Part shown: one piece after another, positions 47,648 through 63,963 of the stretch
Layout of the letters: every line of letters starts with the position of its first letter
Numbering within the stretch: position 1 is the first letter of the stretch
The notes under the pieces: model-generated
What the model was told of the DNA's origin: nothing
The model's database searches: none
What the model saw: the letters and a program-made list of their open reading frames with translations, nothing else
Made by a program: the position numbers and the translations under genes
Assembly (NCBI GenBank): GCA_902635455.1
Contig: CACPNW010000004.1
Span: 1-64,000, forward strand
Direction of reading: 5' to 3'
Origin: an uncultured Alphaproteobacteria bacterium
Lineage (GTDB): Bacteria > Pseudomonadota > Alphaproteobacteria > HIMB59 > GCA-002718135
DNA length: 64,000 nt

Positions 47648-48190
47648 TTAAAAATTTTTCATTTTTTCTTCATAAACTGAATTTTTCATCCAAACCTTAA
47701 AAACACAACTATCATCTGAGGATGGGGCTGATCTGAAAACTGTCATTTTATTAGTTATTACATTTCTATCTAGTTTTTTATCACAGTTATATACTCCTTT
47801 AATATGAGTTATAAGAAATATATCTATAATATTAAATATTTGAAATATTAAGTTTGCTCCACCAATTATGAACACATCCTTATTTTTTAAAATATCCTGA
47901 TTTTCGTATTCTGAATTTATATTCTTTATAATGTTTATTAAATCTCCAGAAATATAACGATCAGCTCCTGGGTATAAATCAGGTGATTTTGAAGTAACTA
48001 AAATATTTATTCTATTTTTTAATGGGGTTGGCATAAATGGATCATCCCAAGTTAACCGTCCCATTACTACAACATTATTATTTGTTGTTTCTTTGAAATG
48101 CTGAAGATCTATAGTATTTTTTGGCCAGGGCATAGTGCCATTTTTACTAAAGCCCCATTCATCGTCTACTGCCATAATTGCTTTAATCAC
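47648..48190 (-). CDS. folA: Dihydrofolate reductase
   Basis: IMAVDDEWGFSKNGTMPWPKNTIDLQHFKETTNNNVVVMGRLTWDD; next to thyA. Confidence 0.93.
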   Translation of the reverse strand: MIKAIMAVDDEWGFSKNGTMPWPKNTIDLQHFKETTNNNVVVMGRLTWDDPFMPTPLKNRINILVTSKSPDLYPGADRYISGDLINIIKNINSEYENQDILKNKDVFIIGGANLIFQIFNIIDIFLITHIKGVYNCDKKLDRNVITNKMTVFRSAPSSDDSCVFKVWMKNSVYEEKMKNF

Positions 48191-48221
48191 AATTTATATT
48201 ATAATAGTAATGTTGTTTTAA

Positions 48222-48470
48222 CAACTATAGCGATAAATGCTTTATGTAATAGGTTAGATGGACCCGGGGGCAGTACCCGGCGCCTCCACCATAAATATTC
48301 AGGGGGGCGAAATAGGTTTGACATCGACTGAAAGGTAAAGACTTTGCTCGGTATTGTACCACCGTTATCGGGCTATTTTAATAAACGCTAACGATAATAG
48401 ATTAGCTATCGCTGCCTAGTTTCTAGGCTAGCGCGGTTTGGGGCACCGGGCAACAGAACGCCCCACTATA
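48222..48470 (+). ncRNA. ssrA: Circularly permuted two-piece tmRNA (alphaproteobacterial type): acceptor piece about 48222-48291, spacer about 48292-48302, coding piece about 48303-48470
   Basis: Acceptor piece ends CCGGG-GGCAGTA-CCCGG-CGCCTCC-ACCA (T-arm stem + acceptor 3' strand + CCA); coding piece starts GGGGGCGAAATAGGTTTGACATCGACTG, whose GGGGGCG pairs with CGCCTCC (one G-U); tag ORF GCT AAC GAT AAT AGA TTA GCT ATC GCT GCC TAG = ANDNRLAIAA* at 48387-48419; terminal hairpin GGGGC...GCCCC. Outer 5' and 3' ends are approximate. Confidence 0.93.
48445..48465 (+). repeat. tmRNA 3'-end core, copy 1 (native): ACCGGGCAACAGAACGCCCCA
   Basis: End of the tmRNA coding piece; reference copy for downstream repeats. 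Confidence 0.85.
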
Positions 48471-48521
48471 ATCTTGATTTTTGATTCAATTCTCTGGTTT
48501 TTTTTAAAATGCTCCAAAAGA

Positions 48522-48540
48522 ACGCGTAATTTACGCGTAA
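48522..48540. repeat. Pair of ACGCGTAA direct repeats, 11-bp periodicity
   Basis: ACGCGTAA at 48522-48529 and 48533-48540. Confidence 0.8.
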
Positions 48541-48557
48541 TTAGAATTAAAAATTAA

Positions 48558-49730
48558 TTATTTATAATCACTAAAGAATGATTTTTGTCTTTCACCTTCT
48601 TCAATTATTTGTTTAATTTTTGCAACGGACATCCAACACTCTAGATAGATAGTAGCTTCCGTAATAAGTTGTCCAAGTTCCTTATTTGATAGCTTCTCGG
48701 TTGACGGATCTTGGAACTTGAATTGATTGGAACTTGCAAATGTTTTAAGTGTCGAAGACTTCACACCAAAGTTAAAGCCTTCCACTCCCTCTTCAATATA
48801 TTTTGCGACAGCAACACCTACAATATTGCCTTTTTGATCAATTATAGGACCACCACTATTACCTGTACTTAGTGAAGCATCAATTTGAAAGTTGGAATAA
48901 TTATCTCCATATCCTGCAAGAGAGGTAACACTACCTTTAAATGTTTTAATAGAGGCACTAATATTTTTCCCTAAAGGATAGCCGGCCACAATAATATCTT
49001 CTAAAATAGATACATCCTCTTTGCTTATAGAAAAAACTTTGTTTGGTTTTATGTTTGCTTTGATAATTGCTAAATCATTTGTCCTATCAATAAACAATAC
49101 ATTGGTATCTAGCTCTCTTCCTTTGTAATGTGTTTTAATTATATCACAAGAGTCTATAACATGGTTATTTGTTACCATATGTCCATTATTTGAAACAATA
49201 AACCCAGTTCCAGATGATGCGGGAACAAGAGTGTTATGATCTTCTTTTTGTGTTTTTACTATTTGGTTTTTTTCAATTTCTTTTTCAAGATTTAATAATG
49301 CTAATTCCAAGTTATTAATATCATTGCATTGGATAGCATGCCATTTGTTATATATTTTATTTGTATCGTTATTTTCATAATTAATATTAGTAAAAATTTT
49401 GTTTTTATAATTGTATATAGCATCCCAAGTATCCTCTCCATCAAGTGTTCTTCCTCGAGAGAAAATAGACTCTTCTGTAATTTTATAAATTTGCATTGTG
49501 TTACTTATATCTTCTGACACTCCATTAGCGTAAATCCATTCTTTCATTAAGATTATATTTTTTTCAATATTTATAGTGAAGGTAGCTTTCTCATTATAAT
49601 CGTAATCATCACTAGTATTTTTTTTATTATCTTCATCAATATACCAGCCACTACACTCAAAATTGAAATTATTAGCATTTGCAATGTTTGGAATTAAAAA
49701 AGCTATAATTAAAATGAAAAAATATTTCAT
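48558..49730 (-). CDS. Secreted trypsin-like (S1C) serine protease with novel N-terminal domain
   Basis: Signal peptide MKYFFILIIAFLIPNIANA; GTGFIVSNNGHMVTNNHVIDSCD (His), NDLAIIKA (Asp), IDASLSTGNSGGPIID (Ser). Confidence 0.88.
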   Translation of the reverse strand: MKYFFILIIAFLIPNIANANNFNFECSGWYIDEDNKKNTSDDYDYNEKATFTINIEKNIILMKEWIYANGVSEDISNTMQIYKITEESIFSRGRTLDGEDTWDAIYNYKNKIFTNINYENNDTNKIYNKWHAIQCNDINNLELALLNLEKEIEKNQIVKTQKEDHNTLVPASSGTGFIVSNNGHMVTNNHVIDSCDIIKTHYKGRELDTNVLFIDRTNDLAIIKANIKPNKVFSISKEDVSILEDIIVAGYPLGKNISASIKTFKGSVTSLAGYGDNYSNFQIDASLSTGNSGGPIIDQKGNIVGVAVAKYIEEGVEGFNFGVKSSTLKTFASSNQFKFQDPSTEKLSNKELGQLITEATIYLECWMSVAKIKQIIEEGERQKSFFSDYK

Positions 49731-49771
49731 ATGTTAACAATACCATGAAATTTAAAAATTGCTCTAATTTC

Positions 49772-49790
49772 ACGCGTAAAATTCGCGTAA
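49772..49790. repeat. Pair of [AT]CGCGTAA direct repeats, 11-bp periodicity
   Basis: ACGCGTAA at 49772-49779 and TCGCGTAA at 49783-49790; a further ACGCGTAA at 49894-49901. Confidence 0.75.
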
Positions 49791-49923
49791 TCTATTTAAA
49801 AAATATTAATTTTTGGTGTTATGTGATATAAACTTTTTTAAGAAAGAATAGGCAATAACATTAGGAAATGCTTAAACTTTTGGGTGTTTGTTCACGCGTA
49901 AATACATGAGAACCATTTCACGC

Positions 49924-49944
49924 ACCGAGCAACAGAACGCCCCA
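49924..49944 (+). repeat. tmRNA 3'-end fragment, copy 2: ACCGAGCAACAGAACGCCCCA
   Basis: 20/21 identity to the tmRNA 3' core at 48445-48465, same strand. Confidence 0.85.
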
Positions 49945-50049
49945 TACTAAATCTCAAAATATCTATGTTAATTATAGGTTTTTTATTTTCTAAATTTGGT
50001 TTGCCAAAATCATGCCGAATAGAAAAATGAAATTTAAAGTATTATATTA

Positions 50050-50418
50050 TTAATTAACTGGAATTACAAAACTAGGAGAATAAGTTCTATGCTTGTCAGT
50101 AATTGCATCTGTTATACCTAAATCAAAGAATAAAACACTTGCGCCTAATTTAGCGCCTTCAATAGAACTAGCAATATTGCCAAATCCTTTTTTGCCGGTA
50201 TCTGTTGTACAATCATATCTTAAGTTATCATCGGATCTTCTTATCGAAAAAGTTCCTGGAACTTTACCACTCCATGAGCCTCTTTTGTTTGACAAATTGC
50301 AAGTTCCAGAACTTGCATCACTAAAAGACAACGAAACTGGAGTATTTGGATCATTAACAATAGTGGCACACGAAGAAAGTACAAATATTGAAACCAAAAC
50401 TAGTGCAATTTTTTTCAT
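50050..50418 (-). CDS. Small putative lipoprotein
   Basis: Lipobox-like LVSIFVLSSCATIV; 122 aa. Confidence 0.7.
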   Translation of the reverse strand: MKKIALVLVSIFVLSSCATIVNDPNTPVSLSFSDASSGTCNLSNKRGSWSGKVPGTFSIRRSDDNLRYDCTTDTGKKGFGNIASSIEGAKLGASVLFFDLGITDAITDKHRTYSPSFVIPVN

Positions 50419-50483
50419 AGGAAAAAACTAAACCCATTTTAAGCTTAAGTCTATAAACATCTAAATAAGCTATAAAAACTGCT

Positions 50484-50900
50484 TTAATTATTAGTTTTTA
50501 ATTTTTCAATATGAGTTAAAATATCAGAAATATTTGTCATTTCACAAAAACCTATAGGTATCATTTCTCTAGTTGTATTCCCGCCCGAGGTCATTGTCCA
50601 TATATCAACTCTCAAAGTTTTGAGATGAACAGAATAAATAAGATCTCTTATTTGATTTTGTATTAAATATATATTTATGAAGGGTAGCTCAGAGTCAGTT
50701 TCGTAATAATATTCTCTAAGATTAGTTACATTATTAATGTCAGTATTTATAACTTTAACTTTTTGAGATGATATAAATTCAAAACCCCATAATAGATCTG
50801 AGCATAAAATATTTTTACCATCTAAATTTTCATCTGCAAAAACGTTAATAATTAAAAAAATAAAAGAAAAAAAAATCAATAAAATTAGTCTTTTCATCAA
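50484..50900 (-). CDS. Hypothetical secreted protein
   Basis: Signal peptide MMKRLILLIFFSFIFLIINVFA; no family recognised. Confidence 0.6.
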   Translation of the reverse strand: MMKRLILLIFFSFIFLIINVFADENLDGKNILCSDLLWGFEFISSQKVKVINTDINNVTNLREYYYETDSELPFINIYLIQNQIRDLIYSVHLKTLRVDIWTMTSGGNTTREMIPIGFCEMTNISDILTHIEKLKTNN

Positions 50901-50906
50901 ATTAAT

Positions 50907-51767
50907 TTATTCTGCTATTGCAATTAATGTATCTGTTTGACCTAATTTTTTTAGATTTTCACAATAAGATGAATTTAATTCATCACTTACAGCTTCTTTA
51001 TAAAAGTTATGACCACCAGGTTTTCTTTTTAAAAACCAGCCTAAGTGATTTGAAAAATTATATCTTTGATAATATTGAATATTTATATTTTTAAAACCTG
51101 ATTTCAAAAGAATGAATTTAAGAGATTTGTATGTATGAAGAATTAAATGCTCACTCCAAAATGTAAAGTTTTTAAATTCTTTTAACTCTTCTTGTAAAAT
51201 TAAAAAATCTTCAGCATGAGGTACTTCAATAATAATTTTCCCTTTATTATTTAATTTTGATTTTAAAACCTTTAAAGTTTTTATTTGGTAAGGAATATGT
51301 TCTAAAACATGAAACATTGTAATTACATCGAATTTTGTCCTATTTTTTTCTAAATTATCAATAACATTTATTTTTTTAATATTTTTTTTAAGGAATTTTA
51401 TACAATTTTTATTTACTTCGAGACCAAACAATTTTTTTGAATTAGTTATATTTTTTAGAAAACCTCCAAACTCACATCCAAAGTCTAAAATTTTTTTTTG
51501 TTTTAAAATATTTTTAAATTGTAGGTATCTTCTTTTATCATCATTTTTACAATTAGAAATATATTTAGTAAGATTTTTTTCATTCATCTTCCTGTCATTT
51601 TCATAATGCTTTGTATCTCTTATGAACTTTTCTAAAAATATAATTTTAGTTTTTAAATCTTTTATTACTTTTATTTTTTTATCTCTAGTTTTGTTACTTA
51701 AAACAACCAAATTTGATTTTGAAATTAATTTCAATTTTATTAATTCATCTATAATTGGATTTTTCAT
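50907..51767 (-). CDS. Class I SAM-dependent methyltransferase
   Basis: KKILDFGCEFGGFLKNI; FDVITMFHVLEHIPYQIKTLKVLKSKLNNKGKIIIEVPH. Confidence 0.88.
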   Translation of the reverse strand: MKNPIIDELIKLKLISKSNLVVLSNKTRDKKIKVIKDLKTKIIFLEKFIRDTKHYENDRKMNEKNLTKYISNCKNDDKRRYLQFKNILKQKKILDFGCEFGGFLKNITNSKKLFGLEVNKNCIKFLKKNIKKINVIDNLEKNRTKFDVITMFHVLEHIPYQIKTLKVLKSKLNNKGKIIIEVPHAEDFLILQEELKEFKNFTFWSEHLILHTYKSLKFILLKSGFKNINIQYYQRYNFSNHLGWFLKRKPGGHNFYKEAVSDELNSSYCENLKKLGQTDTLIAIAE

Positions 51768-51812
51768 AATTATTTAATATCATTAAACTAATAAGATTAA
51801 TAATTAAATATC

Positions 51813-51929
51813 TTAAACACTTGTCTGAAGTTCTACATTACAGATATTGTGTCTAATGATTGCTTCATTTAGTGGAATACTACTTTCTCTTTTTAAGATA
51901 TTAAAAAACCACGATTTAGGAAACTTCAT
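51813..51929 (-). CDS. Possible 38-aa small ORF
   Basis: Hand-translated MKFPKSWFFNILKRESSIPLNEAIIRHNICNVELQTSV*. Confidence 0.25.
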   Translation of the reverse strand: MKFPKSWFFNILKRESSIPLNEAIIRHNICNVELQTSV

Positions 51930-51999
51930 ACGAGTTCAATTAATTTATTAATTAATAATATTTTATTGAATATTTTTAAATTTATATTAATTAATATTC

Positions 52000-52224
52000 A
52001 TGCAAAACCAAGAAATAATTAAAATAATTGAAAATCTAAAAGGTCGAAGAAATTATGTAGAAAAAAAAGCATCTAAATTAGGTTTTACTTCTCTTTATGA
52101 CTATTTTGAAGATAAAATTTTAAAAGAAAAAAAAGTGATTGAAGATAAAAAAAAAGAATGTGAAGAGATCAAAAATGACAATGATCTAAAAAATAAAGAA
52201 AATAAAAGTTGTAGCTGTTGTTAA
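52000..52224 (+). CDS. Small charged protein with C-terminal CSCC motif
   Basis: 74 aa ORF MQNQEIIKIIENLKGRRNYVEKKASKLGFTSLYDYFEDK...KSCSCC*. Confidence 0.6.
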   Translation: MQNQEIIKIIENLKGRRNYVEKKASKLGFTSLYDYFEDKILKEKKVIEDKKKECEEIKNDNDLKNKENKSCSCC

Positions 52225-52241
52225 ATATATTTTGTTGAAAT

Positions 52242-52259
52242 GAACAACAGAACGTCCCT
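52242..52259 (+). repeat. tmRNA 3'-end fragment, copy 3 (degraded): GAACAACAGAACGTCCCT
   Basis: Shares CAACAGAACG-CCC with the tmRNA 3' core; 18 nt after the preceding ORF. Confidence 0.6.
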
Positions 52260-52428
52260 AAATTATAAAATTCTCTAATTTTTCTTATTTATATTATCGT
52301 TTTTTTTACTTTTATTAATTTTTAAAGAAAAAATATGAGGTCTTGAATTATTAAAAGGTTGTTATATTAAAAAAAATTTGATTTTTTTAATGTAATAAAA
52401 CTAATTTTTCTGCTAGTTTGGTTAACGA

Positions 52429-52447
52429 ACCGGGCAGCAGAACGCCA
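52429..52447 (+). repeat. tmRNA 3'-end fragment, copy 4: ACCGGGCAGCAGAACGCCA
   Basis: One internal mismatch to the ACCGGGCAACAGAACGCC core; upstream GCTAGTTTGGTT also resembles the coding-piece GCTAGCGCGGTTT. Confidence 0.75.
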
Positions 52448-52471: not shown

Positions 52472-52837
52472 ATGAAAAAATTTGATGATTTAATGAGTGT
52501 TAAAAATGAAATTGAAAATATTTCGGCTGAAGAGGCAAAAGAAAGGTTAAATGATCCAAATGTTCAATTTATTGATGTTAGGGATAAAGAAAGTTTTTCT
52601 AAAGGTACAATTGGAAATGCAATCCATATGGACAGAGGTTTGCTTGAATTCTATTTAGCAGAAGGAAGTCCATTAGAAAGTGATATTTTCAAAAAAAACC
52701 CGAATAAAGAATATGTTGTATTTTGTGGTGTAGGAGGACAAGGCACTTTAGCAACTAAGACAATGCAAGAAATGGGTGTTAAAAATGTTAAAAATATTAC
52801 TGGTGGTATGGCTGAGTGGGAAAAGATAAAAAAATAA
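52472..52837 (+). CDS. Rhodanese-like domain protein
   Basis: VQFIDVRDKESFSKGTIGNAIHMDRG; active-site loop YVVFCGVGGQGTLAT; GGMAEW. Confidence 0.9.
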   Translation: MKKFDDLMSVKNEIENISAEEAKERLNDPNVQFIDVRDKESFSKGTIGNAIHMDRGLLEFYLAEGSPLESDIFKKNPNKEYVVFCGVGGQGTLATKTMQEMGVKNVKNITGGMAEWEKIKK

Positions 52838-52933: not shown

Positions 52934-53866
52934 ATGTATAATATATTTAAACCGCTTCTTAAAAAATTTGAATCTTTTATATTGAAAAACTTTGAAAAGC
53001 AAAAAATACAAGTCTCAAAAAATTTTTTTTTAAATCTTGAATTAAATCTAGATAAAATTGAAAATATTGACTCTATAAATTATAAGGTATTTTCTCAAAA
53101 TGGCGAAGATGGGATTATACAATATCTAATTAAATCATTAAAACTTAAGAAAATTAAATTTGTAGAAATTGGAACAGAGGATTACTCAGAAAGCAATACT
53201 AGATATATTTTTGAAACCACTAGGTGTGATGGCTTAATAATTGATCCTCTTAAAAATCTTAAAGATAAAGTTAAAAATACAGTTACAAATTTTTGGAAAA
53301 ATAATTTATTGATTATAAATGACTTTGCTAGTCCAAGTAATATAAATTTAATTTTAGAAAAAAATAACTTTAATAATAATATTGATCTTTTTTCTATTGA
53401 TATTGATGGTGTTGATTACTGGATTATAAAAGAATTAAAAAAGAATATTTCAAAAATATTTGTTGCTGAATATAATCCTTATTTTGGTCCAGATTTAGAA
53501 ATTACTGTTCCTAATATAGAAAATTTCAATAGATCATCTTATCATTATTCAAATTTATGTTTTGGGGTTTCATTAAAATCGTTAATAAAAATTATGATTG
53601 AAAAAAATTATACTTTTGTTGGTTCAAATGAATTTAGAAACAATGCTTTTTTTGTATCGAATGAGCATATAAGTAATATTAAACTTAAAATACCCAATAT
53701 ACAAAATTTAGAAGAATTTACTGATGCAACCTTTAAAGAAAGTAGAAACAAAGATGGAAATCTATCACTTATAGAGCCAAAAAAAATATTAAATAAAATT
53801 AGAAATTGTGAAGTAATTAACCTAAAAAATAATCAATTAGTAAAAATTAACGAATTATTAAAATGA
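52934..53866 (+). CDS. FkbM-like methyltransferase-fold protein
   Basis: YKVFSQNGEDGIIQYLIKSLKLKKIKFVEIGTEDYSESNTRYIFE; IDLFSIDIDGVDYWI. Confidence 0.6.
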   Translation: MYNIFKPLLKKFESFILKNFEKQKIQVSKNFFLNLELNLDKIENIDSINYKVFSQNGEDGIIQYLIKSLKLKKIKFVEIGTEDYSESNTRYIFETTRCDGLIIDPLKNLKDKVKNTVTNFWKNNLLIINDFASPSNINLILEKNNFNNNIDLFSIDIDGVDYWIIKELKKNISKIFVAEYNPYFGPDLEITVPNIENFNRSSYHYSNLCFGVSLKSLIKIMIEKNYTFVGSNEFRNNAFFVSNEHISNIKLKIPNIQNLEEFTDATFKESRNKDGNLSLIEPKKILNKIRNCEVINLKNNQLVKINELLK

Positions 53867-54495
53867 AAAAAAAAATTAATTTAAATGATGCTTATTCTTT
53901 AAAAACACCTGGGGACTCTAAAAAACTTTATAAAAAATGGGCACAAACCTATGATAAGGATTTTGCATTAAGTTCAAATTATTTATCTCCAAAAAAAATT
54001 GCTAATTTTTTTAATAAGTATTCAATGAATTCAGATACCCCAATTCTTGATGTTGGAGCAGGAACAGGTTTAGTTGGTCAATTTCTAAACAAAAGTGGTA
54101 CAAAAGAAATAATTGGAATAGATATTTCTTCTGATATGTTAGAAATGGCAAATGTTAAAAAGTGTTATTCATCTCTAATAGCAGCTGATATTACAAAAAA
54201 AATTCCATTCAAAGATGCTTCTATTGGAGCGATTGTAAGTGCTGGAACTTTTACTCATGGACATGTTGGAGCAGATGCAATTGATGAACTTTTACGAATT
54301 ACTAAACCAGGAGGCTTATTCGTTTTATCTATTAATTCAAAAGTTTTTATTGATGGAGGTTTTAAGAAAAAATTTTTAAAAATTAGAAATATAATTTCCT
54401 CACCCATTTTTAAGGAATTTAATGCGCATGGAAAACATAAAAATAAAAAATATAAAGAGGTAAAAATTTTAGCATCAATATTTCGTAAAAAATGA
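53863..54495 (+). CDS. Class I SAM-dependent methyltransferase
   Basis: YKKWAQTYDKDF; PILDVGAGTGLVGQFL; EIIGIDISSDMLEMA. Confidence 0.9.
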   Translation: MKKKINLNDAYSLKTPGDSKKLYKKWAQTYDKDFALSSNYLSPKKIANFFNKYSMNSDTPILDVGAGTGLVGQFLNKSGTKEIIGIDISSDMLEMANVKKCYSSLIAADITKKIPFKDASIGAIVSAGTFTHGHVGADAIDELLRITKPGGLFVLSINSKVFIDGGFKKKFLKIRNIISSPIFKEFNAHGKHKNKKYKEVKILASIFRKK

Positions 54496-54550
54496 AATTT
54501 TATATTTTATTATTTTAAAAAAATGTTAATAAAAATTCAATTTATAATTC

Positions 54551-55030
54551 ATGAATCTAAAAAAATATAAATATAACTTCAATTTTTTTAATTGGATAAA
54601 AAGAACAGAATTAGTAGAATTAAATGAAATAAACACAGAAGATGATCCTATAAGACCTGAATTAAGCAATGATTTTAGGACTTCTAGTGGAAGAAAAATA
54701 TTTGGTCTAAAATATGATGGTGATATTGAAGGAGTTGTTTGCGTTGCTTTTACAAGTGATATACCTGAAACAGTCAAAGAATTAGAATTAATGAGTACTA
54801 GTGAGGAAAAAGCTAAAATTGCAGTTGCTTACACTCTTTGGTCTTTAAAAAAAGGAGCTGGTAAAAAAATAATGAAAGAACTTTTAAAACATTTAAAAGA
54901 AGAAAATAGTTTAGATAGTGTAATGACACTCTCTCCCTTAACGCCTATGGCAACTCATTACCATATTAGAAATGGCGCCAAACTAGTAAAAATTAACCCT
55001 ACAACTCAAAATTTTGAATATAAAGTTTAG
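54551..55030 (+). CDS. GNAT-fold / malonyl-CoA decarboxylase C-terminal-like protein
   Basis: LKYDGDIEGVVCVAFTSDIPETVKELE...SVMTLSPLTPMATHYHIRNGAKLVKINP. Confidence 0.5.
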   Translation: MNLKKYKYNFNFFNWIKRTELVELNEINTEDDPIRPELSNDFRTSSGRKIFGLKYDGDIEGVVCVAFTSDIPETVKELELMSTSEEKAKIAVAYTLWSLKKGAGKKIMKELLKHLKEENSLDSVMTLSPLTPMATHYHIRNGAKLVKINPTTQNFEYKV

Positions 55031-55057
55031 ATTAGTAATACTAAACCATAGAATAAT

Positions 55058-55080
55058 TGATAATATTTAAAATATTATCA
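55058..55080. terminator. Perfect AT-only inverted repeat between convergent genes, possible bidirectional terminator
   Basis: TGATAATATT-TAA-AATATTATCA, 10-bp arms. Confidence 0.45.
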
Positions 55081-55746
55081 TTAATGTATTTTTTTAATAT
55101 TTTTGTAAATTAATTCAGCCAATATAAAATCAGATTTTTCATCAATATCAAAATGTTCCGGTGAGTTTAGAACAAGAGGATAAAATTTATTACCAAAAAT
55201 TTTTCCTTCTTTTTTCATGAAATTTGATTTAACAATACTAAAAGCAAAATTCAAAGCATAAATTTTTTTTAAATTTTGAGATCTTGGATGATTATTTGGA
55301 TTGTAATTTATAGCCTTTCCCTTAAACCACATATACTCCTGTATTATGTGAACAGTTGTTAAAGAGTCATATTTTTGTTTATTTTTGTTAAAAAAATTGT
55401 AAGCTTTTTTAATTGATTTATCACTAATTAATGGTGAAGTTACATTTACATAACAAATATATTTGTTTTTTACTCTTGATGCTAAATACTTATAAACTTC
55501 TTTCATCGGAATTGTTGATGTTGCATATTTTTTTGGCCTAATATCTATATTTATTTTATTTTTTTTTCCAATTTTTACAGATTTCTTACAATCTGTACTT
55601 AATAATATTTCAGGTTTTTTAAATATTCTTTTAATTTGATTAATTTTTAACTGTAATAAATTTGTATTATGAAATTTTTTAATATTTTTATCTATTACTC
55701 TTTGACTACCCTTTCTTACTGGAATTATGAAAACAAAATCTTTCAT
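55081..55746 (-). CDS. Acylneuraminate (nonulosonate) cytidylyltransferase-like protein
   Basis: FVFIIPVRKGSQRVIDKNIKKFHNTNLL; ICYVNVTSPLISDKSIKKA. Confidence 0.85.
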   Translation of the reverse strand: MKDFVFIIPVRKGSQRVIDKNIKKFHNTNLLQLKINQIKRIFKKPEILLSTDCKKSVKIGKKNKINIDIRPKKYATSTIPMKEVYKYLASRVKNKYICYVNVTSPLISDKSIKKAYNFFNKNKQKYDSLTTVHIIQEYMWFKGKAINYNPNNHPRSQNLKKIYALNFAFSIVKSNFMKKEGKIFGNKFYPLVLNSPEHFDIDEKSDFILAELIYKNIKKIH

Positions 55747-55747
55747 C

Positions 55748-57559
55748 TTAAAATAATTTTTTATATAAAATATTATGATTTTCTAATAATTTCTTCTCAT
55801 TAATAAGTTTTGAATATTTATTTTTTTTCATTATTCTATTTTCTTCTAGTGATATAATAAAATTGTTTATTACTAAATATTCAATTGTACCTCCTAATAA
55901 ATGCTCAACAGCTTGATAAGGTGAAGAAATTGTTGAAATACCATGCCTATTAAAACTAGTATTTAAAATAGAATAACAACCTGTAAGTTTGCCAAATTTT
56001 AGTATCAGATCATGAAATGAGGGATTAAATTCTTTAATAACTAGTTGTGTTCTACAAGAGTTATCTACATGACAAGCTGCTGGAGCTATTTTTTTAAAGT
56101 AAGAACCAGCTTTTTGGGTTAACTGCATATATAGAGAGGCTTTTTCGTCCTTAAAATATTCACTAAATTTTTCTTCAATTATTGCAGGGGCGAACGGCAT
56201 AAACCAATCTCTACGCTTAATAAATAAATTTAACTTTTGTTTAGAATTAATATTTCTAGGATCAGCTAGTATTGACCTTGAACCAAGTGATCTTGGTCCA
56301 TATTCACCTCTTCCTCTAAAAAGCCCAATAATTTTTCCATCTACAATTTTTTTTACTAAAAAAGAATTTACTTTTTTATAAGAATCAAATTTTTTATAAT
56401 TTAAATTGAAATTTTGAATAATCTCTTTTATCTCAAAATCTTTAAAAGATGGCCCTAAATAAGGCGATAAACCAAATTTGGACATATATTTTTTTGAAAA
56501 TTTTTTTTTCTTATGTTTAAATTTTATATAAAGTGCCATACCAAGAGAAAGTCCTGAGTCTCCAGGAGACATTGAAAAATAATAATTTTTAAATTCAGTT
56601 TTTTTTATAATCTCTTTATTAAGAACAACATTATTAAATAAGCCTCCTACACAAATTAGATTATCTTTATTTGTGGCAAATATACTTTTAATAAAATCAA
56701 TTGTTATATCTATTAATAGTTTTTCTCCTGTAATAGCTATATCTTCAGCCTTATATTTTTTACAAATGTTAAGTAATTTAGAATTAGTAGGAGAGATTTT
56801 TAAATATTTTTTTGGTTCGAATGTTTGATACTTGATTTTTTCAAATTGAGTGGATGTTTTTTTTCTTTTATTACTAAATATAATTTTTTGTTTTTTTAAA
56901 TCTAATAAAAAGAAATTTTTTAACTTTACATATAATTGTTTTGAAAATTTTCCATAAGCTGCTAGCCCTGAGGTTTTTCCATTGTTATCATAAAATCCAA
57001 GAACATCAGTTAAATGATTGTGAAACGCTGCTATTCCTAAGCCTTGATTATTAAAAGTTTCACCAAATTTTTTAAAATTAAGCTTATCTGAACCTTTATA
57101 ATTTATTTCACCCCAAAGCATTCTTCGTTGATCACCGAAATCCCCTCCACCGTCTATTGATAATATTTTTGAACTTTTGAAAGGAGAAGCAAAAAAGCCA
57201 TTATAAATATGGCCCATATGATGTGGTATCTCTATAACATTTTTGGTAATAAATTTTTTTAAATCTTTTTTAGTTGTTGCTTTTAATAAATCTACAAAAA
57301 AATATTTATATCCTTCTAAAGATATTTTTCTAAAAGGTTTACTAAAAATCCAATAATCTATTTTTTGTGGTACTAAATTTATTTCTTTGAAACCAAAAAA
57401 TAAAGATCTTATTGGAATAGAATTACCTTCATCATTTTTCGATCCTCTTAGTTTGGCTTCTTCATAAGAATATATTTTGTTATTAGAAATGATGGTAACA
57501 TTTTGATCATGTCTATATTGTTCATCCATAGGATGGGGATAAATTGACACTATATTCAT
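55748..57559 (-). CDS. NodU/CmcH-family carbamoyltransferase
   Basis: HHMGHIYNGFFASPF; SIDGGGDFGD; CVGGLFNNVVLNKEI; LFRGRGEYGPRSLGSRSILADPR; LNTSFNRHG. Confidence 0.9.
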   Translation of the reverse strand: MNIVSIYPHPMDEQYRHDQNVTIISNNKIYSYEEAKLRGSKNDEGNSIPIRSLFFGFKEINLVPQKIDYWIFSKPFRKISLEGYKYFFVDLLKATTKKDLKKFITKNVIEIPHHMGHIYNGFFASPFKSSKILSIDGGGDFGDQRRMLWGEINYKGSDKLNFKKFGETFNNQGLGIAAFHNHLTDVLGFYDNNGKTSGLAAYGKFSKQLYVKLKNFFLLDLKKQKIIFSNKRKKTSTQFEKIKYQTFEPKKYLKISPTNSKLLNICKKYKAEDIAITGEKLLIDITIDFIKSIFATNKDNLICVGGLFNNVVLNKEIIKKTEFKNYYFSMSPGDSGLSLGMALYIKFKHKKKKFSKKYMSKFGLSPYLGPSFKDFEIKEIIQNFNLNYKKFDSYKKVNSFLVKKIVDGKIIGLFRGRGEYGPRSLGSRSILADPRNINSKQKLNLFIKRRDWFMPFAPAIIEEKFSEYFKDEKASLYMQLTQKAGSYFKKIAPAACHVDNSCRTQLVIKEFNPSFHDLILKFGKLTGCYSILNTSFNRHGISTISSPYQAVEHLLGGTIEYLVINNFIISLEENRIMKKNKYSKLINEKKLLENHNILYKKLF

Positions 57560-57686
57560 TGTTGGTTAATAAGCATTTTAAATATGATAAATCAATATTT
57601 TAAATTAAGAAAATATTATATAAGGTTTTCAATAAATTTATCATTGAAATCTCAATACAAAGCAAATTATATCTGATATTATTTAT

Positions 57687-58427
57687 ATGGTGATCAAAAA
57701 GAAAAAAAAGTCAGCAGGTGATACAATATATACTGAAAATGCTTCCTGGAGCTTTGGGAATAAGGTACCTAAAAGTTTTTCAAAGCATATTAAAAAATCA
57801 GTACCTATGTATGAAGAAGCTCATAATATAGTTGAAGAAGTTTCTGATTTTTTTTTAAAAGAAAAATCAATATGCTATGATTTAGGTTGCTCTACAGGAC
57901 TACTTATAAATAAGTTATCAAATAGACACCCAAATAAATATGTTGATTTTATTGGTATTGATTCAATTAAACAAATGATTACTCAAGCAAAAAAAGAAAA
58001 TAAAAAAAATAAAAATAATAAAAATAAAATTAAGTATCAAAATGGTGATATTAAAAAAATTAAATTAAAAAAATCTGATCTAATTATATCTTGTTACACA
58101 ATGCAATTTATTGAACCAAAATTTAGACAAATTATTATTAACAAAATATATAAATCTTTGAATTGGGGTGGTGGTTTTTTAATGTTTGAAAAAATAAGAG
58201 CATCTGATGCAAGATTTCAAGATATTTTCTCAATAGTCTATAATGATTTTAAATTAAAGAATGGTTATTCACCAAGTGAAATTATTCATAAAACAAAAAG
58301 TTTAAAAGGTGTTTTAGAGCCTTTTTCTGATTATGGAAATAAAAGTTTATTAAAAAGAGCAGGTTTTGAGGATAGTATCCCAATTTTTCAATGGCTTTGT
58401 TTTAAAGGATATCTTTGTATAAAATAG
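57687..58427 (+). CDS. CmoA-like class I SAM methyltransferase
   Basis: ASWSFGNKVPKSFSKHIKKSVPMYEEAHNIVEEVSDFF...CYDLGCSTGLLINKL. Confidence 0.85.
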   Translation: MVIKKKKKSAGDTIYTENASWSFGNKVPKSFSKHIKKSVPMYEEAHNIVEEVSDFFLKEKSICYDLGCSTGLLINKLSNRHPNKYVDFIGIDSIKQMITQAKKENKKNKNNKNKIKYQNGDIKKIKLKKSDLIISCYTMQFIEPKFRQIIINKIYKSLNWGGGFLMFEKIRASDARFQDIFSIVYNDFKLKNGYSPSEIIHKTKSLKGVLEPFSDYGNKSLLKRAGFEDSIPIFQWLCFKGYLCIK

Positions 58428-58430
58428 TCA

Positions 58431-59384
58431 ATGAATAATTCTGACATAAAAAAATATTTAAAATATCTTAATTTTGATAAATTTTATAAACCAAAATATA
58501 AAAGGTGTGAAATTTGTAATTCCAACAAAACAAAATTGCTAAGAAAAAAAATATCATGGAACAATAATAAGTTTGGAGTTTTGCCAGTTCATTGTTGTCT
58601 TAATTGTGGATTTGTTTTTCAAAATCCAAGATTTGATAAACAATTTTATAAAAACTATTATGAAAAAGCATATAGAAATATAACCTTAGGAACTCAAAAA
58701 CCTCCAAAAAAATATTTGGATGATCAAAAAAGTAGGGGGAAAAAATTATTTAAATTTCTAAAACCTCATATACCAAAAAAAGGTTCTATGTTAGACGTAG
58801 GCTCTTCTGTTGGTTTGATGTTACTACCTTTTTTAAAAAATAATTGGAAGTGTAGTGGAAATGATCCAATTAGGAGTTATGTTGATTATGGTAAACAAAA
58901 GTTTAATCTTCCAGTTGAGTGTATTCTTTCGGAAGATATGAAGCTTAAAAAAAGAAGCTTAGATCTTATCATAATTATGGGCTCATTAGAGCATGTTGTT
59001 GATGTAAATTTAGTTATGAAAAAATGTTCAGAAGCATCAAAAACTAATGGAATTTTAGTTTTAGAAGCAAGAGGAGACCCTTTAGGTAACACTAAAAAAT
59101 TTTTTAATCAAAGTCATCATAGATATTTTTTTGAAAATACTCTGGAATTAATTATGATTAAGTATGGATGGGAGCCTTTTTTAACCACCAAATATCCAAT
59201 TACAGGCCCAACAAGACAAAACACTATTTTTTGTTTAGGAAGATTTAAAGGAGAAAGTATTAAAAAGAATTTTAAAAAAGCAATTAAATTTGGAAAAAAA
59301 GAAACTTTTGATGATATTTTTTTTAAACTAAAATATTATAATTATTTAGCAAAAAATTCTTCAAACAAATTGCTTCTCAGATAA
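58431..59384 (+). CDS. SAM methyltransferase with N-terminal zinc-ribbon
   Basis: RCEICNSNKTKL...VHCCLNCGFVFQNPRFD; GSMLDVGSSVGLMLLPFL; GSLEHVVDVN. Confidence 0.85.
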   Translation: MNNSDIKKYLKYLNFDKFYKPKYKRCEICNSNKTKLLRKKISWNNNKFGVLPVHCCLNCGFVFQNPRFDKQFYKNYYEKAYRNITLGTQKPPKKYLDDQKSRGKKLFKFLKPHIPKKGSMLDVGSSVGLMLLPFLKNNWKCSGNDPIRSYVDYGKQKFNLPVECILSEDMKLKKRSLDLIIIMGSLEHVVDVNLVMKKCSEASKTNGILVLEARGDPLGNTKKFFNQSHHRYFFENTLELIMIKYGWEPFLTTKYPITGPTRQNTIFCLGRFKGESIKKNFKKAIKFGKKETFDDIFFKLKYYNYLAKNSSNKLLLR

Positions 59385-61227
59385 GATTGCTTTGTAAATT
59401 ATTTTTCCAAATTACATAATTTAAAATCCTAAAATATGAATCATTATTAGTTCTGTATTTAAGGTTTTTATTGTCATTTCTTAAGTTGTCTAAAATTAAT
59501 CTTGGATCAAAATAAATATTATTTTGAAATGAATTTAGATAGTCACAAAATTTTTCATAATAATTATTAAATATCATTACTTTAGAACTTCCTGGTCTTC
59601 CAATTTTTTTCTTATGTAAATATTTATGTGGAAGCTTGTCATTCATAATTTTTCTCAGCATATATTTAGAAAAACCATCTTTCATAAAAAAACTTTCGTT
59701 TAATGAAAATACATATTCCATAAATTTATAATCAACAAATGGTGTTCTATTTTCAATACTATTGCCCATTGAAATTCTATCCTCTAATCTTAAAATATGA
59801 GGTAAATCTCTTTTGAATAAATGACAATATAGAAATTTTTTAAATGAATTTTCATCATCTGGTTTGGAGTCATTATAAAATTTTAAATCTGAAGGTAAAT
59901 TTGATTCTTTAATTTTTAAAAAATTAAAAACTTCTAAATCTTCAATGTCATTATTACGATTTAAAATATCTTTATAGTTATCTAAATTTTTTTTAAAATT
60001 TAAAAAACTACTTCCAAGATTTTTTTTAATATTATCAATTAAAATTTGAGGTATAGGTTTATTTTTATTTAAATAAACACTATTTATAAAAGGAATAAAC
60101 ATTCGATTATATCCTCCTAATAATTCATCTCCCCCCTCACCTACTAATAGAACTTTATATCCCTGCTTATGTATATGTTTTCTTAATAAAAACTGATTAA
60201 CAAATGAGACTGCATTGATTGGCTCATCTTGTATAGATAAAATTTTTTCTAATATATCTCCATTTAACCCTTCTCTGCAATCAACATAAGAATGGTTTAA
60301 AGAATTTTCTTTTATAAATTCATCAATAAATATTTTTTCATCATTTTCTTCTTCATATTCAGAGTTAAAGCTAAATGCTTTATAATTAATATTATTATTT
60401 TCCAAACTTGTTTTAACTATTGAAGAGCTATCAAGACCTCCTGACAAAGTAAAGGCTATAGGAACATCTGCTCTCAGATGTAAATTAATATTTTGATTAA
60501 AATTATAATTAAATTCTTCAAGGTCAAACTTCTTATTTTGATTTATTTCTAATTTCCAATATTTTTTTATTTTAATTTTTGAACCTTCAATTATACCCAT
60601 ACATCCTGCAGGCAATGTAAATATATCTTTATAAAAAGTTTCATTAGTATCATCTGACCAACCTCTTAATAAATATTTTAAAACAACTTTTTCGTTTTCA
60701 TTTATTTCATTTTTATTTTTTACTAAAATGATATCTTTGATTTCAGAGCTTAGTATTAATCCTTCAGAAAAAAAAGAGTAGTAAAAAGGTTTTTGTCCAA
60801 GATGGTCCCTAAAGCAATAAATTTTATTTATTCTTTCATCAAAAATAATAAAACTAAACATTCCTCTAATCTTTTTTATAAAATCTAGACCCCAAACTTC
60901 ATAGCTTTTTAACAACACTTCAGTATCTGAAGAAGTTTTAAAAGAAATATTTTTTTGTTCTAACTCATTTTTTAATTCCAAATAATTGTATATTTCACCA
61001 TTAAACACTAATACAATTTTGCCGTCATTGCTTAAAAATGGTTGATTTGCATTTTTTGATAAATCAATAATCTTTAATCTTCTAAATAAAATTGAATATT
61101 TCTTTTTTTCAATTTTATTAATATCATCTGGACCTCTATGAAAATTCAAACCACTTAACTTATTAAAAATATTATTAAGTTTATCAGTATTTAAATTTGA
61201 GTTTACTATAGATACAAATCCACACAT
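59377..61227 (-). CDS. asnB: Asparagine synthase (glutamine-hydrolysing), AsnB-type
   Basis: MCGFVSIVN; LNFHRGPDD; LVFNGEIYNYLELKNEL; FTLSGGLDSSSIV; LLVGEGGDELLGGYNR. Confidence 0.95.
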   Translation of the reverse strand: MCGFVSIVNSNLNTDKLNNIFNKLSGLNFHRGPDDINKIEKKKYSILFRRLKIIDLSKNANQPFLSNDGKIVLVFNGEIYNYLELKNELEQKNISFKTSSDTEVLLKSYEVWGLDFIKKIRGMFSFIIFDERINKIYCFRDHLGQKPFYYSFFSEGLILSSEIKDIILVKNKNEINENEKVVLKYLLRGWSDDTNETFYKDIFTLPAGCMGIIEGSKIKIKKYWKLEINQNKKFDLEEFNYNFNQNINLHLRADVPIAFTLSGGLDSSSIVKTSLENNNINYKAFSFNSEYEEENDEKIFIDEFIKENSLNHSYVDCREGLNGDILEKILSIQDEPINAVSFVNQFLLRKHIHKQGYKVLLVGEGGDELLGGYNRMFIPFINSVYLNKNKPIPQILIDNIKKNLGSSFLNFKKNLDNYKDILNRNNDIEDLEVFNFLKIKESNLPSDLKFYNDSKPDDENSFKKFLYCHLFKRDLPHILRLEDRISMGNSIENRTPFVDYKFMEYVFSLNESFFMKDGFSKYMLRKIMNDKLPHKYLHKKKIGRPGSSKVMIFNNYYEKFCDYLNSFQNNIYFDPRLILDNLRNDNKNLKYRTNNDSYFRILNYVIWKNNLQSNLI

Positions 61228-61278
61228 TAGTTTGCTTAATATTAATTAGGAAATTAAATAAATTTATTTATATTATAA

Positions 61279-62415
61279 TTAATCAAATATAAATTTATTA
61301 TCCAATTTTTTTATCCATTCCCTATATTTATCAGAAAGATCTATCAATTTTATATAAAACTCATCATCTAGGCCATTTTTGAAATTATTTGAGATATTCT
61401 TTCTATATTCCAAATCTGCGTCTTCATAAGTCATTTTTTTGGCATTTTTATCAGAAATTGATTGATTTCCATATCTTTTATAAACTGACCTAGTAAAGCC
61501 TTGGTTTAATAACTTTCTCGGAATCTTTTGTTTTTTCATTTCTTTTAATAATTGATTAGTTTTTTCAATTTTCAATATTTTTAATATTCTATCTATCCAA
61601 GGATCAGGATTAACTACAAATTTTTCAAATGGTAAAAAAATAAAACTGTTTTCATTTAATGTTATTTTGTCAAAATCAAAATTGAAATAAAAACCAAAGA
61701 TTCTTTCTAGGTATGATACTACAAATTCATTGGTATTTACATTATCAGCATCTGCAAAAACATTTTCTTTTGAATAGTAATCGAAAAATAAAGATTTACC
61801 AGCATTTGAAAAACATTGAAAAGTAAAAACTTTTTCCGGATTGTCTATATATACTTCTTTATATAAAATACTAACTTGTTTAAACATATAAACTGGATCA
61901 CGAACTGTTTCAATAAATAATAATCTTTTTTTTAAGGCATCTGAAATTGCGTTTATAAAAAAAATTAGATGTGAACTTACAAAACACGTAATAGGTTTTT
62001 TTTCATTAATAATTTTTGGAATATGATTATCTCCTTTTTTAAAAGCTCTTAATAAATATTTTAAAAATTTACCTGAATTATATACACTCGAAACATCAGT
62101 AAAGCGAAAGTTTGAATTTCTCGACATCATTTGGTTGTATATTGTATGATCTGCATACTGTTTTATAAATTCTTTGTAAGAACCAGGATCAATTTTTTGA
62201 TTGTACAAAAAGCTTGATATCCATTCGATTTCATAAGGATAAATCATAGACTCTACATTTTGCATAGATGATATGATCGGGGAAAGCATAGTTTTTCCTG
62301 AAGCTGAAAAACCATTTACAAAAACTACTTTGTTTGAAAAAGTTTTACTTTTTTTAATCTTTCTTTTTTTGTCAGCTTCCTCTAAACCTATATCATTAGT
62401 AAATTTAAATATCAT
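61279..62415 (-). CDS. Sulfotransferase-like P-loop protein
   Basis: VVFVNGFSASGKTMLSPIISSM (PAPS/P-loop-like); LLFIETVRDPVYMFKQ. Confidence 0.65.
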   Translation of the reverse strand: MIFKFTNDIGLEEADKKRKIKKSKTFSNKVVFVNGFSASGKTMLSPIISSMQNVESMIYPYEIEWISSFLYNQKIDPGSYKEFIKQYADHTIYNQMMSRNSNFRFTDVSSVYNSGKFLKYLLRAFKKGDNHIPKIINEKKPITCFVSSHLIFFINAISDALKKRLLFIETVRDPVYMFKQVSILYKEVYIDNPEKVFTFQCFSNAGKSLFFDYYSKENVFADADNVNTNEFVVSYLERIFGFYFNFDFDKITLNENSFIFLPFEKFVVNPDPWIDRILKILKIEKTNQLLKEMKKQKIPRKLLNQGFTRSVYKRYGNQSISDKNAKKMTYEDADLEYRKNISNNFKNGLDDEFYIKLIDLSDKYREWIKKLDNKFIFD

Positions 62416-62424
62416 TTAATTGAC

Positions 62425-63963
62425 TTAATCTAATCTCTGTAAAATTGCTGACGTTATATTATTTAAGCTTTTTTCTTGATTACTTTCTTTAAAAAAAATT
62501 TGCAAATGTTTTTTGCTATAAACTGCGTTTATTAAATATCCACTAATTTCTTTGATAAATAAACATACGTCTGATTTAATTTCTTCTTTAGTTTTATTTG
62601 ATAAATTATTAATAGCATCTTCAATTTCATTTTTAGAACTAACATATCTAGAACTATTACATCTTGAATGCCAGTTTTCTGAGAACAAAATTGATGGTTT
62701 AAGTTTTAATAATCCTTCCCAACCCACTGATCCAGAAACGGTTGCTGTTATTTTGCATTTTTCTATTAATAAATTCTGATCTAAATCAGTAGAAGCAAAT
62801 ATTACATTATTATTTTTTAAAAAATTTTCATAATAAATATTATTACGTGCATGCATTGCTCTCAAATCATAAGTCATTTGCCTTGGATGCTCTTTAATAA
62901 CCAGTTTCCAATCTTTTGGAAGAGCTTCGGCTAAATTACGAGCAATTAATAATTGATCACTAAAAATCATGCCTTCAGGCAATGTTGAAGCTTCTGGTTG
63001 ATAATGCAAAGCTAAATATATATATGGCTTGCTTAAATCTATATTTGAAGTTTTTAATTTATTATAATTTTTAATTTGTTTTTTTAGTATTCTTAAATAG
63101 TTATTATGTAATTTAAAATAACTCCACCTATTCAATGGATTAATACCTGCTAATGAAGTTCTTTGACTTGTATCTGTTGTTGCTCCTTCAACATTATTAT
63201 TAGGTCCATATAAAAAAATACGAACAAAAAAAATTAAATTTTGCAAGCCTAATTTTCTTAAAAAGTCTAAAAAAATTTCAAAATATTGTTTTTTTTCTAT
63301 CCAATCTTTTGGCCATTGACCTTTAACTTGATTTTTTGTGAATGATAAATTTTTAAGCGTTTCAAATGTATTTTCTTTTTCAATAATTGTGCTCATTGGG
63401 TTGTAAAGTTTTTTATACATAAATTTCCAATTTGATTTTTTTGGTCTAAAATCTTCGTCAATATACATATAACCTGCTATGCATGTTCTTCTTAATATGA
63501 GAACCCTTAACCCCAAATATTTAGCAACATAAAATAAACAAATATTCCATGGTAAATGGGGAATGCTATCAAATATAATTGAATCAATTTCTTTATTTTT
63601 TTTAAAAAAACTAAAATAATAACCAAGCAAATCCCAGAAAAATGTTTGTGTAGCATTAACAGATTGTAAAATAGGTGTGGTTCTATCCATAGAAGATAAA
63701 AATAAAAATAAGCACTCTGAAAACTTACTTGCAACCTCAGCACTTATTGATGAACTTTTAGTATCTTGAAATGCTGATGAAATACTTGAATGTCTGTAAA
63801 GCAATGTTGCATCCATAAAATTTAAATTTGATAATGAGCTTGTTTTTTTTGGTTTTCTGTGTGAAATTATATGGCTAAATTTTTTACTATTTAAATCACA
63901 TAAACGCTCAGCTATATTTTCTGTGTATGAATCACCCATAAAATCACAAATAATAGTGCTCAT
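62425..63963 (-). CDS. Capsule polysaccharide synthesis/export-like protein
   Basis: KPYIYLALHYQPEASTLPEGMIFSDQLLIARNLAEALPKDWKLVIKEHPRQ; TATVSGSVGWEGLLKLKPSILF. Confidence 0.75.
   Translation of the reverse strand: MSTIICDFMGDSYTENIAERLCDLNSKKFSHIISHRKPKKTSSLSNLNFMDATLLYRHSSISSAFQDTKSSSISAEVASKFSECLFLFLSSMDRTTPILQSVNATQTFFWDLLGYYFSFFKKNKEIDSIIFDSIPHLPWNICLFYVAKYLGLRVLILRRTCIAGYMYIDEDFRPKKSNWKFMYKKLYNPMSTIIEKENTFETLKNLSFTKNQVKGQWPKDWIEKKQYFEIFLDFLRKLGLQNLIFFVRIFLYGPNNNVEGATTDTSQRTSLAGINPLNRWSYFKLHNNYLRILKKQIKNYNKLKTSNIDLSKPYIYLALHYQPEASTLPEGMIFSDQLLIARNLAEALPKDWKLVIKEHPRQMTYDLRAMHARNNIYYENFLKNNNVIFASTDLDQNLLIEKCKITATVSGSVGWEGLLKLKPSILFSENWHSRCNSSRYVSSKNEIEDAINNLSNKTKEEIKSDVCLFIKEISGYLINAVYSKKHLQIFFKESNQEKSLNNITSAILQRLD

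Follow-up and report, generated by a model that had tools for sequence, protein, structure and literature searches.

Small gene cassettes, most of them without an integrase, accrete by site-specific recombination at the 3′ end of a transfer-messenger RNA (tmRNA) gene and move between species: this is the reading we favour, at a probability of roughly 85%, for a serial array found in a 64,000-nt stretch of DNA from an uncultured alphaproteobacterium of the HIMB59 lineage (contig CACPNW010000004.1, positions 1–64,000; hereafter ‘the window’). The permuted tmRNA gene would offer its 3′ end as the chromosomal attachment site (attB) for small integrative units, each of which, when circular, would carry a single attP made up of a core (the last 12–22 bases of the tmRNA gene) and, to either side of it, the arm sites of a tyrosine integrase. 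Recombination at the core would insert the unit, restore the tmRNA 3′ end and leave a distal core copy, which would stay a target, repeated insertion then giving rise to an array. Shared architecture and position suggest that these events are catalysed by a family of integrases of the type found at locus L125 in a sister genome, most units having probably lost their integrase by deletion and relying on rare relatives that carry one for recombination in trans; transfer from cell to cell would use another vehicle.

The tmRNA gene lies at 48174–48467 on the + strand and is of the permuted, two-piece alphaproteobacterial type (Rfam RF01849, 226.5 bits; RF04321, 143.7 bits). ARAGORN, which placed its limits at 48199–48510, likewise called it permuted, in agreement with an earlier note on this DNA that had taken the end of the coding piece to be the 3′ end of the gene, as it is in a permuted tmRNA gene. 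The same note had reported four + strand copies of that end, and core searches recovered them all: core 1, the tmRNA 3′ end itself (ACCGGGCAACAGAACGCCCCA, 48445–48465), which forms attL; core 2 (49924–49944, one mismatch), which is attR of the first unit and attL of the following one; core 3 (52242–52259), which is degraded; and core 4 (52429–52447), the outermost attR, which adjoins the ancestral downstream flank and, degraded as it is, retains the usual spacing to the next ATG seen in relatives. A relaxed 15-base core gave zero-mismatch matches at all four places, and the 21-mer, at ≤3 mismatches, gave two matches in the window against none expected from 100 dinucleotide shuffles, which bears out the claim that such repeats are unlikely to arise by chance. 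A dispersed, genome-wide repeat was considered and rejected, as all occurrences of the 21-mer in the 1.14-Mb assembly (68% complete) lie behind the tmRNA gene. The tmRNA end forms a GGGGC...GCCCC stem, and the repeats might on that account be transcription terminators or processing signals, copied for reasons of RNA function. However, the hairpin is not kept, because the copies outside the tmRNA lack the GGGGC half and have a variable left flank, and neither the polarity of the copies nor the existence of empty sites (both described below) would be explained; on sequence this reading is already unlikely, and we give it almost no credence.

The relatives available for comparison were mostly incomplete ocean single-cell genomes (named AG-... 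and titled uncultured Alphaproteobacteria), from an order that holds two families. Within the genus, 85/101 genomes matched a 15-base core, often as a same-strand series of several matches, and 128/162 genomes of the order matched a 16-base core. The copies were polar: in the regions fetched for 47 tmRNA loci, 99 core copies lay downstream on the same strand, none lay upstream (255 kb scanned, genus set) and one was inverted. A single-contig genome of 1,410,127 bp from the sister family (G110) had one core copy, that of the tmRNA itself. Array content differed almost everywhere among related genomes and a given unit could be found at differing array positions, so that the fixed order of segments against which the earlier note had proposed to check its insertion hypothesis was not what was found. 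The sole inverted core copy (L307:7384–7778) accompanies an inverted rhodanese gene, and the end of the array is therefore inverted at that locus.

Junctions are exact when filled and empty sites are compared. At the empty sites L060 and L062 the tmRNA gene is followed after 22–23 bp by a rhodanese-domain gene, and a flank of this kind, 20–24 bp long, separates the last core from the rhodanese ATG at many filled loci. One unit of ~800 bp, c0, stands first behind the tmRNA gene in 11 genomes, the majority of those that have it; elsewhere another unit, of 668 bp (L044), 1920 bp (L082) or 963 bp (L305), lies between the tmRNA and c0, the start of which is unchanged. This unit, which has no integrase, is 100% identical over 801 bp between L082 and L083, compared with 75.5% identity over the 2.4 kb ahead of the tmRNA gene. 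Similar disparities were seen between L056 and L046 (99.5% unit identity versus 76.4% in the flank), for unit c2 between L071 and L047 (98.8% versus 75.5% in the neighbouring core sequence) and for unit c4 (96.4% versus 74.6%). Contamination is an unlikely cause because each unit copy shares a contig with its own genome's tmRNA. Related species have exchanged near-identical cassettes very recently. Such movement could also come about were DNA from lysed relatives to exchange cassettes by homologous recombination, through the conserved core together with the tmRNA gene or the arms and with no present site-specific recombination: arms and tmRNA/rhodanese borders are conserved, and shared flanks could carry a unit along with its neighbours. 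Yet the cores are just 12–22 bp long, L082 and L083 share only 75% identity in the tmRNA-side flank, against 100% in the unit, and matched iterons specific to each unit at both of its ends would go unexplained; we regard this alternative as unlikely.

With a unit taken to start just past a core and to close with the following core, there were 116 units. Their median length was 890 bp, and 81 of them held one open reading frame (ORF) of at least 60 aa; 113/163 ORFs pointed toward the tmRNA gene, and many unit genes begin ~215 bp from the distal core, with a leader of their own. Sequence to the left of the core differs between unit families (CACGCACCGAG, TAGTGGTCGTT, GACTGATAAGG and others), ACAGAACGCCCC being common to nearly all, and within a family the last 130–200 bp are conserved despite unrelated genes. 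A short word occurs as a tandem pair past the first core and again ahead of the second core of the same unit, and this iteron is unit-specific (ACGCGT in unit 1 of the window; elsewhere CTACGAAG, TGTGCAC, GTGCCGT, TGCACACACT and others). In 80 units deduplicated to one per sequence cluster, the GC-containing word common to both ends had a mean length of 6.5, compared with 0.88±0.31 when unit ends were permuted (maximum 2.1 in 10,000 permutations), and both ends shared at least 8 bp in 45/80 units, compared with 2/56 interior controls. A tandem iteron with an 11- or 12-bp period was present 46–61 bp past the core in 63/109 units, whereas 1/77 control segments had such a tandem at any position. 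Paired arm sites on either side of a core mark the attP of lambda-type integrases. The unit ends have the arm architecture of a tyrosine-integrase attP, with one half at each end, as expected of an integrated element.

The earlier note had seen no integrase in this DNA, and none was found in the window. The genome from which it comes yielded one tyrosine recombinase gene, encoding a 355-aa Xer-like protein, with neighbours that are conserved in most relatives; the gene occurs once in most genomes and adjoins a sir2-type gene (L085:2288–3355, − strand; L217–L228). No match of XerC/XerD strength was seen in 38 genomes, and the Xer-like protein may be the chromosome-dimer recombinase of the order. 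Another recombinase was found in the sister genome: at L125 (JAQBWI010000091.1) an intact 336-aa phage-type integrase starts ~110 bp past the tmRNA end, and its element has iterons at +59 and +70, the same arm layout as in the units. Among the 116 units, integrases amounted to one interrupted gene and one remnant. In unit 2 of L078 there is a homologue of the L125 integrase, broken into two frames; the unit also has genes for an ArsR-like regulator and a permease-like protein (both named from sequence). Unit 1 of L051 retains only the first 51 codons of an integrase in the same place, an illustration of how a unit can come to lack its integrase. Integrase-less units outnumber integrase-bearing ones by approximately 100 to 2. 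The iteron GTGCCGTTT is common to unit 2 of L078 and unit 1 of L079, which makes the two a candidate helper–client pair. Relatives of the L125 integrase in other Alphaproteobacteria, phages and plasmids are distant (up to ~37% identity), and those that were checked lay at various tRNA genes or in fetched stretches devoid of RNA genes; not one was at a tmRNA gene. The earlier note's suggestion of minimal elements mobilised in trans is favoured by attP-like arms at both ends, by the almost invariable lack of an integrase and by the tmRNA-adjacent integrase of the sister genome.

With mostly single-gene units behind one fixed site, and a Xer-like gene that most genomes have in a single copy, in a conserved setting next to the sir2-type gene, the array could be thought integron-like, a single resident recombinase (perhaps the Xer-like protein) acting on it as IntI does on attI and attC. 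Against this, the units have a double-arm attP architecture with varying iterons, their genes mostly face the tmRNA gene, many starting ~215 bp from the distal core behind their own leader, and neither recombinase attains the cut-off of the integron-integrase model (265 bits; the L125 integrase scored 37.5 bits and the Xer-like protein was not listed). Such a mechanism is improbable here.

In the window itself, the array consists of one unit with intact ends and protease cargo and three older or decayed units. Unit 1 (48466–49944, 1479 bp) has matched iterons and no integrase: a tandem ACGCGT pair of 11-bp period at 48522–48538 forms its P′-type arm, and its P-type arm (49772–49899) has iterons at 49772 and 49783, again of 11-bp period, and at 49894, ahead of core 2. 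The 130–200 bp around the latter arm are conserved among units with unrelated cargo. The cargo gene (48558–49730, − strand) encodes a 390-aa trypsin-like protease with a signal-peptide-like start (Pfam PF13365, 3e-23), a relative of which occupies the first unit of L071 (83.6% nt identity over 675 bp). Unit 2 (49945 to ~51937) is decayed or composite, with no matched iterons or recognisable arms, and holds genes for a lipoprotein-like product (50050–50418), a product of unknown function (50484–50900) and a methyltransferase (50907–51767), all on the − strand. Its end is a hidden boundary at ~51938, where the core has decayed; the boundary is recognised because 51943–52257 aligns, at ~90%, with an entire 318-bp unit from a different genome. 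Unit 3 (~51938–52259, ~320 bp), which matches that unit (L068.6) at 90.5% over 315 bp, has a 74-aa ORF at 52000–52224 (+). Unit 4 (52260–52447) is a remnant, 79–80% identical to the unit ends of L067 and L072, and includes, by arm alignment, the conserved left arm of one unit group (52371–52446). The three insertions of 1.5, 2.3 and 0.19 kb first proposed for this locus hold as serial insertion and not in their number, the 2.3-kb segment being composite and the units or remnants four.

Degraded cores and iteron-less units, units 2–4 among them, and the L051 unit with its integrase trimmed to 51 codons would also fit a history of decay only, in which the units are dead, immobile remnants of larger tmRNA-integrated islands and their variation reflects differential loss. 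Integrase-less units are nevertheless near-identical, with exact ends and at differing array positions, across genomes of which the core genes are 75% identical, and most units retain matched arms at both ends; decay alone is already contradicted for several units and is quite unlikely as a general account.

A number of observations weigh against site-specific accretion in trans as we propose it. At least one core copy was present at 40/43 inspected tmRNA loci of the genus, and other genera of the order have copies too, but loci were partly picked for carrying copies, and the occupied share is biased upward and is no frequency estimate. In 46/109 units no starting tandem iteron could be recognised, and such units may be dead. 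Iteron sequences vary among units, so that either many integrase specificities or a tolerant enzyme would be needed. An integrase of the L125 type was not found in the window's own genome (68% complete), and only one intact tmRNA-adjacent integrase was found at all, so that catalysis in trans is no more than inferred. Lastly, no circular intermediate or attP was seen, and pattern scans of IMG/VR turned up no attP-bearing phage or satellite.

A phage origin was pursued in those IMG/VR scans and set aside: exact patterns of the core or arms returned contigs with a tmRNA gene of their own (eight of L035–L043, with the tag ADENLALAA or similar), one without (L039), or nothing, and the L125 integrase protein had no relative in that database. 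Cargo had no phage structural or packaging families among the listed PHROG tallies and no conjugation families among the listed Pfam tallies. Trypsin-like proteases made up 5/117 cargo proteins scanned; also represented were bactofilins, HNH endonucleases, methyltransferases and acetyltransferases, together with restriction-modification genes of types I and II and many short proteins that have no known function and a signal-peptide-like start. In units of the GACTGATAAGG/GATGTGTTGGG type (L076, L073, L298 and L299) many unrelated cargo proteins share an almost identical signal-peptide-like beginning (MKTLLTLFVLFFSSSV.A), which in one L073 unit is found on each of several tandem genes; a unit may keep its leader and signal peptide constant while the mature parts of proteins are exchanged behind them.

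Beyond the array, the rhodanese-domain gene (52472–52837, +; Pfam PF00581, 6e-23) is a conserved distal neighbour, not cargo, and its position at 52472 is the former distal border of the window array. It is followed at 53000–63963 by surface-polysaccharide-like genes (methyltransferases, asparagine synthase, carbamoyltransferase and cytidylyltransferase, named from sequence), a second variable region adjoining the array. In other genomes, L066 (G060:C33) has a second, different permuted tmRNA gene (tag ANESYALAA) beside its own (ANDNRLALAA), possibly owing to assembly contamination. At L061:4810–7450 (reverse-complement orientation) and L063:200–3990 there is a second additive array, with tRNA-Gly copies of almost full length and fragments of integrases. 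It also contains c0, in decayed form, adjoining a core of the tmRNA type: accretion of units seems to extend across hotspots.

That tmRNA genes are island targets is known (PMC4383910, PMC11915505); no description of tmRNA cassettes in this order was found in the literature searched, and a paper on HIMB59 islands mentions neither tmRNA nor an integrase. The closest precedents are additive flexible genomic islands (fGIs) at tRNA genes, namely the tRNA-Lys fGI-2 of Methylophilaceae, in which repeats of the RNA gene's last 20 bases stand between accreted cassettes (PMC10872708), and fGI1 of Ca. Actinomarinales, in which tRNA-fragment repeats end the inserted cassettes (PMC7771536). These share serial insertion at an RNA gene, end copies of ~20 bases, variable content, many unknown genes and streamlined aquatic hosts; they differ in that the site here is a permuted tmRNA gene, the units are resolved to gene-cassette size, and there are matched arm iterons, a candidate integrase class, exact empty sites and near-identical transfer. 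As in tRNA-gene islands, the target RNA gene is intact (Rfam), its 3′ fragment is distal (99/100 copies downstream on the same strand) and presence or absence has exact junctions (L060 and L062 empty; nested insertions at c0). Islands of the Islander type need an integrase of their own (PMC4383910), and have in common with these units a regenerated target, a displaced fragment as distal end and, at L125, an integrase beside attL; the window and nearly all units, however, lack an integrase inside the island and would be missed.

The mechanistic parallel is with cis-mobilizable elements (CIMEs) and microCIMEs, decayed derivatives of integrative and conjugative elements (ICEs) or integrative and mobilizable elements (IMEs) that keep their att sites and accrete in tandem (PMC7563491). 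Like them, the units have att-like ends on both sides, nearly all without recombination genes, overlap in size, are stacked at the 3′ end of one gene and may be mobilised by a relative. The L051 remnant shows deletion from an integrase element, but no ICE or IME was seen. Unlike CIMEs, the units have no known ICE or IME parent, the parent-like elements are small (an integrase and few genes) and outnumbered ~100 to 2, and no conjugation genes were seen. Tycheposons, described for Prochlorococcus, are, according to a paper that cites them (PMC10872708), similar in their tyrosine recombinase, RNA-gene target and shuffling of cargo in ocean bacteria, and differ in size, at 4–200 kb compared with a median of 0.89 kb here and nearly no recombinases. 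Integron cassettes likewise form a mostly single-gene array beside a fixed entry site, whereas here no IntI-level recombinase was seen, the ends are double-armed, and genes mostly point at the entry site and come with leaders of their own. What is new relative to the tRNA additive islands and CIMEs is the cassette size, the paired arms and the permuted tmRNA site.

The G+C content of the window (28.3%) and a full genome of ~1.7 Mb, estimated from 1.14 Mb at 68% completeness, agree with the AEGEAN-169/HIMB59 order, family GCA-002718135 (PMC10308909, PMC10734472). Bacteria of this type, among which the genome most probably falls, have streamlined genomes and are common in surface waters of the ocean, yet gene-by-gene turnover is seen at this locus. 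Island finders that demand an integrase overlook such units. The arrays comprise many delimited transfer events at one site, from which it can be measured how fast and how widely single genes are transferred in the sea. For studies of integrase–DNA recognition they provide a natural collection of integrases and attP arms that differ in iteron specificity. Whether the units go further, and make up a shared cassette pool across an abundant ocean order, comparable to integrons and built on attP arms, with the tmRNA gene as entry site, integrase-less single-gene units bearing unit-specific iterons and a few tmRNA-specific tyrosine integrases acting in trans, is to our minds evenly balanced; if so, it would be a natural gene-cassette system comparable to integrons.

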